From Tropicibacter sp. R16_0 (GTDB taxonomy: Bacteria > Pseudomonadota > Alphaproteobacteria > Rhodobacterales > Rhodobacteraceae): a stretch of DNA of 64,000 bases. Numbering within the stretch: the first letter of the stretch is position 1; every line of letters begins with the position of its first letter. Positions 17,514 to 58,891 of this stretch are shown piece by piece. A model generated the notes under the pieces. The model was not told the origin of the DNA. It searched no databases and was given only the letters and a program-made list of their open reading frames with translations. The DNA is taken from NCBI RefSeq assembly GCF_017743935.1, contig NZ_JAGHRE010000008.1, positions 62,001 through 126,000 of the forward strand. The letters are read 5' to 3'. The position numbers and the translations under genes were made by a program.

Positions 17514-17650
17514 GTCAGATGTCACCTTTTCAAGTTCTCACCGGTCAAGTCTGCCGCCGGGCCCCAGCAGCTTGGCCATTCGAGACAACGCGATCGGATC
17601 AATTCATGGCCACCGTCCCGAGTGGCAGCCTCCCGATCCATGAACCGCGT

Positions 17651-56714: not shown

Positions 56715-57278
56715 ATGACCCAACGTCCGCTTCCGACCAAAGATCGCCTGATCCGGGCCGCTGCCGATTTGTTCCGGCGCAGCGGTTATCACGGTGTGGG
56801 TTTGTCAGAACTGCTGACTGCGGCGGACGCACCCAAAGGCTCGCTTTATCATCACTTTCCGAACGGGAAATCCGATCTGGCCGTGGCAGCAGCAACCTGG
56901 GCTTCAGACGAAATGCTGCGATTGATTGCGGCCTCGTTCGAACCCGCCGAGGATTTCGAGGCGGGCACGCGAACCCTATGCCACAAAGCGGCGAAAATGT
57001 TCGACAAGTCCGGCCAATGGGATGGATGCCCGATTTCAGCGACGCTGTTTGAAGGCCCGGACAATACCGACTTTCGCAAACACGCGCATCACCTGTACGA
57101 AGGCTGGATCACCGAAGTAACCCATCATGCGGCCCGGTTGGGAGAGGCCAACCCACGTGACACTGCGGACACGCTGTTCATCCTGCTGCAGGGCGGATGG
57201 CAATTGGCCCGGGCCCGCCAAAGCTCGGACGAATTACGCAAGTTGCCTGATCGGTTGTTTGCGGCCAAAACCGATTGA
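56715..57278 (+). CDS. TetR family regulator
   Basis: A 187-residue regulator with an N-terminal helix-turn-helix (DRLIRAAADLFRRSGYHGVGLSELLTAADAPKGSLYHHFP) and a ligand domain with several cysteines. TetR members of this size usually repress efflux or hydrolase genes. The 23 bp before its start contain part of the operator region. Divergent from the hydrolase, which it probably represses together with itself. Confidence 0.9.
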   Translation: MTQRPLPTKDRLIRAAADLFRRSGYHGVGLSELLTAADAPKGSLYHHFPNGKSDLAVAAATWASDEMLRLIAASFEPAEDFEAGTRTLCHKAAKMFDKSGQWDGCPISATLFEGPDNTDFRKHAHHLYEGWITEVTHHAARLGEANPRDTADTLFILLQGGWQLARARQSSDELRKLPDRLFAAKTD

Positions 57279-57310
57279 CGTGTACCCCGACAAACAGCTA
57301 GCCATCCCGT

Positions 57311-57491
57311 GATGGTTTCCGAGTCGCTAATACGCGGCCGGGATGAAAAGGGAACACGGTGCGGTCCAATCCGGGACCAAATCCGCGACTGCCCCCGCAA
57401 CTGTAAGCGGAGAGCAAAGCCGAAACACCACTGACCGCAAGGTTGGGAAGGTCGGCCAAGCGATGACCCGCAAGTCAGGAGACCTGCCATC
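57311..57491 (+). promoter_or_regulatory. cobalamin (adenosylcobalamin) riboswitch
   Basis: Contains the B12 box GCGACTGCCCCCGCAACTG, GGGAAGG and GACCCGCAAGTCAGGAGACC, diagnostic of the cobalamin class. P1 pairs GATGG (57311-57315) with CCATC (57487-57491). The 102 bp to the next gene hold no clear T-run but include a GC-rich stretch near the GGAGG of that gene, so translational control is likelier than termination. Confidence 0.93.
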
Positions 57492-57593
57492 GGAACTGAA
57501 ACTCGAACTCGGGCGGGGTGTCCGGGCCGAATTGATGGCATCCTGCCACCAATATCCGGTCATATACCCCGTTCTCTGCGCGGAGGGCGCATC

Positions 57594-57992
57594 ATGATCT
57601 GGAAGACCGACTCTCATCTGTTCACGGCAACGGTATGCCAGCACACGGGGAAAACCTGCCCAGCCGTACAACGCATGGCCGAAAAGCTGTCGCAAGCCAT
57701 GACCGCGTCGAAACCGATGACCTCGGGCGATTTCGAGATCGAAGGCTCCAGCGTGCTCAAACACTGCCCGATGGATTGTCCGGCAAAATTCACCGCCAGT
57801 CACAACCGCATCCGTATCTTCTGTGGCGTAACACCCGAAGCCGAGACAGACGGTTTAAACCGTTTTGCGGACGCCTTGTTTGATCCAAGCCCATATCCGC
57901 TGGCTTTGCCGCAGTTCGAGCGTCCCTGCGCGATTGCTGAAGCCGTTCCCATGACAACACATCAGCCCTCAGAGCATCACGCAGTGATCTGA
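57594..57992 (+). CDS. cysteine-rich protein under cobalamin control, unknown family
   Basis: A 132-residue protein beginning MIWKTDSHLFTATVCQHTGK. Cysteines C15, C22, C58, C62, C77 and C112; C58-x3-C62 (HCPMDC) with C15 and C22 recalls the C-x(n)-C-x(29-35)-C-x3-C layout of thioredoxin-like [2Fe-2S] proteins, though the first spacing is short. GGAGG 8 nt before the ATG. The cobalamin riboswitch immediately upstream implies a role in B12 synthesis, uptake, or a B12-replacing function. I do not recognise the family; metal binding is inferred. A copy of the dispersed repeat begins 25 nt after the stop. Confidence 0.7.
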   Translation: MIWKTDSHLFTATVCQHTGKTCPAVQRMAEKLSQAMTASKPMTSGDFEIEGSSVLKHCPMDCPAKFTASHNRIRIFCGVTPEAETDGLNRFADALFDPSPYPLALPQFERPCAIAEAVPMTTHQPSEHHAVI

Positions 57993-58016
57993 CCAAAAGC
58001 CACAGTCTCGGAAACG

Positions 58017-58094
58017 CTCCCGCCCGTCGTCCGTGTTTCTTACGAAACACATCCTCCCGTTGGGCCGAGCCTCGCTTCGCTCGGCGGTTGGTGA
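58017..58094 (+). repeat. dispersed structured element, copy 2
   Basis: A 78-nt copy, same length as copy 1. Hairpin A here reads GTGTTTC-TTAC-GAAACAC (58034-58051): relative to copy 1, two C-G pairs have become T-A pairs, so pairing is kept. It follows the B12-controlled gene in the sense direction. The 120 bp after it to 58217 hold nothing recognisable. Confidence 0.8.
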
Positions 58095-58217
58095 TTGTGG
58101 CGAACCAGACACCACAAGCGAGACTGTGCCGAGCCGAAGGTGAGGCGCTCGGGCGCGAGAGTGCTACGAGATTGGTTAGAAACGCGATCTCTTTCGGGTC
58201 AAGTTCGGCAAAACATG

Positions 58218-58721
58218 CTACTCCAGCACACGCACCATCCGACCCGTTGAAGCCCATTGCAGTTGCTCGTCCGTTTCCACTGCGCAAGGACGCACCGAAC
58301 GAAGGCGCGCCAGGGCATCACGCGGTTTCTCTCCGCATTCAATCATCAGACGCAGTGCGATCATCCCGGAACGTCCGCACCCCCCCTTGCAGTGCACCAG
58401 AACCCGACCGCCACCGGACAGCGCCTGCCGCGCAGACGCGCTGACGTCCTGCCATTGGTCCAGAACGACCCGTTCGGGCACGCCGAAATCATTGATCGGC
58501 AAGTGCACCCAACGGCAAGCCCGGCTCTGAATGTCCGCTCCGAAGTGGCGCGCGCCGTGTTGCAGCATTTCGACCTCTGTCGTCATCGACAGCACCAGCC
58601 CCGGCGCCCAAGACGCGATCAGATCCAAATCCGACTCATAATCGCCGTACCGGCCGGGCAATGGAGACAGCGCCAAGGTGCCACCACCCACCTGCAACGC
58701 ATAAATCACCATTTCAGACAT
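58218..58721 (-). CDS. dual-specificity/tyrosine phosphatase-like protein
   Basis: A 167-residue protein with the phosphatase signature H110-C111-KGGCG-R117-S118 (HCxxGxxRS) and a general-acid candidate D78 in HLPINDFG. The ATG at 58721 has GGGG close upstream; a longer reading of 44 codons is rejected. It is divergent from dnaX. Substrate unknown. Confidence 0.82.
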   Translation of the reverse strand: MSEMVIYALQVGGGTLALSPLPGRYGDYESDLDLIASWAPGLVLSMTTEVEMLQHGARHFGADIQSRACRWVHLPINDFGVPERVVLDQWQDVSASARQALSGGGRVLVHCKGGCGRSGMIALRLMIECGEKPRDALARLRSVRPCAVETDEQLQWASTGRMVRVLE

Positions 58722-58891
58722 GGCACCCCCCAAGGAAATCAACAGGCTCAAACAGTCTGCCCGCGGATATAATTCCAAAACTTGTACAGCCGACCCGGCC
58801 AAATCCAAACGAAATTCGCGCACGGCGGCAGTGGACGCCGATGGCTGCGGCAACTACGCTACGGCCTCATGACGAATCCGGCAGAGCAGAA

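Follow-up and report, generated by a model that had tools for sequence, protein, structure and literature searches.

Why does a gene for a 132-residue cysteine-rich protein, with no adjoining gene of the cob, btu or cbt series, stand directly behind a cobalamin (B12) riboswitch? The question is raised by a locus of Tropicibacter sp. R16_0 within the stretch of 64,000 nucleotides that was analysed (contig NZ_JAGHRE010000008.1, positions 62,001–126,000; hereafter the window, in whose numbering positions are given). The riboswitch noticed in the preliminary description is borne out by an RF00174 match over the whole model, whereas the start proposed for it, 57311, proved to lie 15 bases inside the aptamer (Table 1). 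The set of six cysteines (residues 15, 22, 58, 62, 77, and 112) is as first described, and no ATG, GTG, or TTG occurs 5′ of the assigned start in the same open frame.

Table 1. Features of the riboswitch locus, numbered from the first base of the window.
Feature	Position	Strand	Basis
TetR-type regulator, gene preceding the riboswitch	56715–57278	+	profile match
Cobalamin riboswitch aptamer (RF00174), full length	57296–57505	+	cmscan against Rfam, 123.2 bits (gathering score 31.5), E 1.9e-30, model positions 1–189 of 189
Leader from aptamer to start codon; presumed expression platform	57506–57593	+	position
Shine-Dalgarno-like GGAGGG	57582–57587	+	read from sequence; identical in 4 aligned sequences including the window
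ORF of the 132-residue Cys4 protein; sole gene directly 3′ of the riboswitch	57594–57992	+	ORF with ATG start
Phosphatase-like gene, next after the ORF, opposite strand	about 58221–58853	−	profile match

The layout of the locus leaves this ORF as the gene that the riboswitch serves. Service of the TetR-type gene was ruled out, as that gene ends before the aptamer begins. Farther neighbors are dnaX (confirmed in the window), ybaB, recR, rsgA, and an alpha/beta hydrolase gene, in agreement with the earlier remark that no cobalamin gene is adjacent. The switching mechanism of the leader is presumed from its position; folding of the leader with a few flanking bases, compared with shuffles, gave z values of −1.62, −0.19, 0.00, and 0.32 for the window and three relatives, which is no convincing excess, and a simple scan of 57200–58250 detected no promoter or terminator. 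Because cobalamin riboswitches usually shut genes off when B12 is ample, adenosylcobalamin would be expected to switch the gene off, with the protein probably produced under B12 shortage. The gene product, in which no signal-peptide-like start is seen, is predicted to be cytosolic. Repression by coenzyme B12 is described for cobG, cobW, cbtB, and btuB in the accessible part of one study (PMC8123684).

The pairing of riboswitch and gene recurs among relatives. Among 394 genomes of the family, 50 gave a total of 51 matches, the window included, and a same-strand cobalamin riboswitch lies directly upstream at 50 of these 51 (30/30 for the best matches, L001–L030; 19/20 for further ones; 1/1 for L096), which rules out chance or artefact as the source of the pairing. 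Thirty of the 51 were grouped by eye, and the other 21 were scanned for the riboswitch only. The riboswitch is likewise present at all three loci taken from named genomes (L031–L033: Falsiruegeria, Tropicibacter, and a Phaeobacter MAG). Sampling across the class (385 genomes) gave seven genomes with a match, four of them outside the family, and two of those four have the riboswitch. The sole family match lacking it is L118 of genome G040, where no cobalamin riboswitch occurs within 1.2 kb; this relative argues against an unbroken riboswitch link. The dnaX cluster is within reach at 15 of 16 loci examined (the window, L031–L033, and L077–L088; the exception is L087, that is, L013), so the position of the gene is old. 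Members of the group to which the window protein belongs are mostly solo near dnaX and have no conserved co-directional partner, as judged from gene calls that for many loci came from a simple script and missed some genes.

The protein itself is a divergent relative of DUF1636 (PF07845), as the preliminary description had suspected. In the Pfam search the window protein scores 16.4 bits (E 0.012), below the gathering cut-off of 31.6, and 11 of the 17 members of its group (alignment A2) match DUF1636 at E ≤ 10 (best E 3.7e-5). Comparison of profiles secured the homology: the window's group matches a set of 17 canonical and 3 importer-type DUF1636 sequences (A4) at 97.0% (P 1e-10) and the importer-type group at 98.7% (P 4.6e-16), and the importer-type group in turn matches canonical DUF1636 at 99.5% (P 3.9e-23). 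Against the 31 canonical sequences alone, the window's group gives 72.8% (P 3.2e-5) with a score of 36.9, compared with 17.2 for the best of 20 column shuffles. As homology is detectable at the profile level and the Pfam score is below the cut-off, the window protein is best labeled a relative of DUF1636 rather than filed as a member. It is homologous to the canonical form over about 90 residues, but lacks the C-terminal DGLVPWRERP...ARIPP stretch of the latter, and its gene is solo, whereas the canonical gene sits in front of cobW. No NCBIfam model matches the window protein at E ≤ 10 or the canonical DUF1636 paralog of the same genome at E ≤ 0.001, and PDB sequence searches returned nothing convincing (best E 1.1 for the window protein alone, 0.25 for alignment A1, and 1.1 for A2).

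The preliminary view that the function of this protein is not yet named therefore holds in part: a Pfam name and a published fold model exist (PMC4520260, accessible part), and a tested function was not found in the literature searched, most subscription journals being outside its reach. The accessible parts of PMC12828279, PMC4809877, and PMC2211319 give no function for a DUF1636-type protein, and searches for COG5469 and for the structure 9JN8 found no paper; among the papers listed for ORF378 together with cobalt or cobalamin, none contained ORF378.

The conserved cysteines divide the relatives into recognizable forms. Among 64 sequences (31 canonical, 11 importer-type, 17 of the window's group, and 5 intermediate; window numbering), C15, C58, and C62 are present in all. 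A cysteine at position 12 occurs in 31/31 canonical, 11/11 importer-type, 1/17 window-group, and 1/5 intermediate sequences, and one at position 54 in 31/31, 11/11, 0/17, and 0/5, respectively. Cysteine 22 shows the opposite distribution (0/31 canonical, 10/11 importer-type, 17/17 window-group, 5/5 intermediate). The window's group thus departs from the canonical five-cysteine set (12, 15, 54, 58, 62) and has its own invariant C15, C22, C58, and C62 (17/17), with C77 in 13/17 and C112 in 15/17. The importer-type group (11 sequences, such as L018), which resembles the window's group in its upstream riboswitch and in C22 but retains cysteines 12 and 54, bridges the two forms. Because this group holds both cysteine sets, the alignment suggests that metal ligands were swapped stepwise, 12 and 54 against 22. 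The direction and order of the swap are not set by the tree, which was made by a quick method, included 16 of the 31 canonical sequences, and has few well-supported branches; three of the five intermediate sequences fall within the window's group, which is therefore not one clean clade.

The setting of canonical DUF1636 genes points to cobalt insertion. PF07845 matches occur in 213 of 295 genomes of the family, and at the 30 best-scoring of these loci (a selection by score, not a random draw) a cobalamin riboswitch lies upstream in 30/30 (20/20 and 10/10) and cobW directly downstream in 30/30; the early guess that relatives would adjoin cob or btu genes is supported by these loci and by the importer and B12-uptake genes beside other relatives (see below). 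Across the 295 genomes, PF07845 and a strong CobN match (E < 1e-100, a threshold chosen after a gap between about 1e-120 and 1e-98 had been seen) occur together in 205, PF07845 only in 8, CobN only in 3, and neither in 79, so that, of the 208 sampled genomes in which CobN matches strongly, 205 carry a DUF1636 gene as well. Weaker CobN matches presumably represent related chelatases. The Fisher value for this co-occurrence (3e-58) is overstated, as genomes were treated as independent. Both CobN and PF07845 above the cut-off are present in each of the 14 genomes whose match to the window protein is close (E < 1e-20; 11/11 within the 295-genome comparison and 3/3 checked separately). In the genome of the window, the canonical copy heads a set consisting of riboswitch, DUF1636, cobW (TIGR02475, 518.7 bits), cobN, a NIR_SIR_ferr-domain gene in the place of cobG, and a CbiC-type gene. 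The window protein and CobW, a G3E GTPase for Co(II) supply, have genes under cobalamin riboswitches in the same genome, and that for CobW directly follows the canonical paralog; the window protein differs in having no GTPase family match.

According to the accessible parts of two studies, CobW supplies Co(II) for B12 (PMC7689651; PMC7895991), and it matters most at limiting cobalt (PMC7689651). The gene list of a B12-making engineered E. coli contains cobWNST and many cob genes, and in the accessible part of that paper names no DUF1636 gene (PMC7895991), which suggests that the canonical DUF1636 protein may be dispensable, an aid rather than an essential step.

Other relatives have neighbors of a different kind, which share corrinoid or metal uptake. 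At five loci (L092–L096, covering 3 of the 11 importer-type sequences; domains tested on L092) the gene is followed, in order, by genes for an ABC ATPase, a Peripla_BP_2 protein, and a FecCD permease, and the same order was read by eye at L108, in a genome of another family. A FecCD-type importer lies downstream of L018. At L013, the next gene, 3 bases away, encodes a Peripla_BP_2 protein that weakly resembles BtuF (51.4 bits; cut-off 234), and ZnuA and ABC-3 genes lie on the opposite side. L029 precedes DUF1289/DUF6925, ExbB, and ExbD genes; L101, from another family, has a DUF1289/DUF6925 gene downstream and FecCD and CbiZ genes near. The genome of the window itself has a riboswitch-led set of BtuB-like, BtuF-like, and CbiZ genes with DUF6925. 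Most BtuB-like and BtuF-like names rest on scores below the NCBIfam cut-offs, and the corrinoid-uptake contexts (L013, L029, L101, L015) are each seen in one genome and for the most part involve divergent relatives.

Two side observations concern these neighborhoods. The L017 gene is flanked by two cobalamin riboswitches (1222–1415 and 1919–2121, both −), of which the second precedes an EitA-like binding-protein gene (303.2 bits; cut-off 640). DUF6925 recurs in B12-uptake settings (L098:4950–5933, L106:4757–5659, and L074:1732–2787, all −), in two of the three with DUF1289, and may be another B12-linked protein.

Two genomes without a PF07845 match bear on the scope of the function. G153, with no CobN match and no PF07845 match, has two riboswitches, one heading the relative L015 and the other heading BtuB-like and BtuF-like genes followed by ExbB/ExbD-type genes (read by eye); it is an apparent scavenger that keeps a riboswitch-led relative, which speaks against a function limited to CobN. 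In G040, PF07845 finds no match and CobN only a weak one; the single riboswitch of that genome stands at the head of a BtuB-like gene. Both relatives are divergent, with 35% (L015) and 25% (G040) identity to the window protein.

Does the protein have a recognizable metal-site fold? The preliminary description had likened it to thioredoxin-like [2Fe-2S] proteins, a likeness that turned out to be weak. An AlphaFold2 model of the window protein from 4 sequences (mean pLDDT 81.6) has the order strand, helix 23–42, strands 48–55, 62–69, and 73–77, helix 85–96, and strand 113–119, with C15 and C22 in the loop before the long helix and C58 and C62 within, or bordering on, the loop that follows this helix and one strand. 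We take this order of elements, in which two loops each carry a pair of cysteines, to resemble that of thioredoxin-like ferredoxins, which are likewise small with four conserved cysteines. A second model, with L033 as first sequence, has a similar element order but a pLDDT of 58.5, too poor for structure search. Foldseek gave no match for the first model at E ≤ 0.001. The best VIA-align row is a pseudopilin (Z 5.4), with nothing listed higher; thioredoxin-like ferredoxins and 9jn8 are absent among the rows shown, which excludes nothing.

Some ferredoxin similarity is found on the canonical side of the family. The profile of 17 canonical and 3 importer-group sequences matches a canonical DUF1636 structure in PDB (9jn8, "ORF378", E 1.3e-41) and, weakly, the thioredoxin-like [2Fe-2S] ferredoxin 1f37/1m2a (E 0.4), and PF01257 matches 5 of these 20 sequences at E ≤ 10 (best E 0.0026). 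In contrast, PF01257 matches 0/17 of the window's group at E ≤ 10, and Pfam and PDB sequence searches detect no likeness to ferredoxins in the window protein or its group. The weak alignment with 1f37 pairs ferredoxin cysteines with the canonical ones at window positions 12, 54, and 58; as the window protein lacks two of these three and keeps only C58, a simple ferredoxin site is disfavored. In the accessible part of PMC4520260, DUF1636 is modeled on 1m2a and a part in redox homeostasis is suggested.

The genome of the window (5.24 Mb) has eight RF00174 matches in all, a count that also speaks against a chance pairing at the locus, and several head genes of other kinds. On contig C37, one riboswitch (L072:4483–4686, +) heads a glycine betaine monooxygenase-like gene, an arrangement also found in a genome of a different family (L132; G540 C112:14708–14911, −); the two genes score 503.8 and 509.6 bits with the GbcA model, below its cut-off of 670, and possibly provide a B12-independent route. 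A second riboswitch (L072:11393–11584, −) heads genes for the large and small chains of a ribonucleotide reductase, which come after two small genes whose sequences suggest NrdH and NrdI; a riboswitch-led ribonucleotide reductase is a known kind of B12-independent substitute. A third (L072:14052–14258, +) heads a NikA/NikE/NikB-like ABC importer, with scores below the NCBIfam cut-offs, perhaps for cobalt or nickel. A further RNA match in the window is Rhodo-rpoB (17546–17639, −; 75.9 bits).

A B12-linked function, as first proposed, is supported by the near-constant riboswitch and by the B12 contexts of canonical and other relatives, and the window protein probably serves a general role in B12 acquisition. 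Which step it serves is a more tentative matter. The reading that is preferred here, though held with less than even confidence, is redox handling of corrinoid cobalt by a Cys4 Fe-S or metal protein. It is favored by the riboswitch at 50/51 relatives, the corrinoid-uptake settings of L013, L029, and L101, and the relative kept in G153, together with the weak 1f37/1m2a match, the PF01257 matches in 5/20 sequences, and the fold model outlined in the accessible part of PMC4520260. The constancy of cobW next to canonical DUF1636 points instead to cobalt insertion; moreover, the window's group shows no detectable ferredoxin similarity, the window protein keeps only C58 of the aligned cysteines, the uptake contexts are single-genome and mostly divergent, and the relative in G040 is without a riboswitch. 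A close rival accommodates the cobW association: the four cysteines might bind Co(II) and help CobW to load the CobNST cobaltochelatase when B12 is low, the solo copy then being a further, diverged chaperone in addition to the canonical one. Such a cobalt carrier is only slightly less probable than the redox reading. The tracking of CobN by PF07845 in 295 genomes, the presence of both in all 14 close-match genomes, the role ascribed to CobW in Co(II) supply in the accessible parts of PMC7689651 and PMC7895991, and the metal-type importers near some relatives (ZnuA and ABC-3 at L013; FecCD-type at L018) all speak for it. It fits less well with the riboswitch-led relative of G153, which has neither CobN nor PF07845 matches, with the corrinoid-uptake genes beside some relatives, and with the window's group, which is without two canonical cysteines, mostly solo, and without a conserved co-directional partner.

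Two further explanations have lower probability. A regulator or sensor, signaling the cobalt or redox state to the uptake and synthesis machinery through a metal site while carrying neither cobalt nor electrons itself, would suit a small, cysteine-rich protein whose relatives head several kinds of B12-riboswitch gene sets; it is nevertheless unlikely, since the window protein matches no DNA-binding family and the lone MarR_2 match (1/17 group members, E 0.0099) is taken as chance. Least probable of all is the B12-independent substitute raised in the preliminary description, a contributor to some route that stands in for a B12-dependent enzyme under B12 shortage. Riboswitches of the same genome do head a two-subunit ribonucleotide reductase and a GbcA-like oxygenase, but the relatives of the window protein accompany uptake and cobalt-insertion genes, its canonical paralog lies within a synthesis operon, and there is no obvious enzyme for a 132-residue Cys4 protein to replace.

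Under the redox reading, the protein would be made when B12 is short and would act as an accessory of B12 acquisition in the cytosol. C15, C22, C58, and C62 may hold a metal site, with a [2Fe-2S] cluster or a divalent metal as the likeliest occupant, through which electrons would be passed, before adenosylation, to the cobalt of corrinoids that have just been synthesized or taken up.

The window protein is thus a remodeled relative of a known but uncharacterized family, and its function has been narrowed. Pathway schemes usually present aerobic B12 synthesis as complete, yet nearly every genome sampled here that has a strong CobN match also has DUF1636, with a tested job not found in the literature searched; the solo form is kept by some producers, and a relative by one apparent scavenger. 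It is possible, and put forward with reserve, that DUF1636-type proteins form a dedicated low-B12 redox or cobalt-carrier family for both cobalt insertion and corrinoid uptake, of which the solo clade would be a stand-alone version with its metal site rebuilt by a cysteine swap. If this is true, B12 metabolism would gain a small protein component that is missing from current pathway maps. A lone gene behind a B12 riboswitch bears on the routes by which cobalt or electrons reach corrinoids in the cell.
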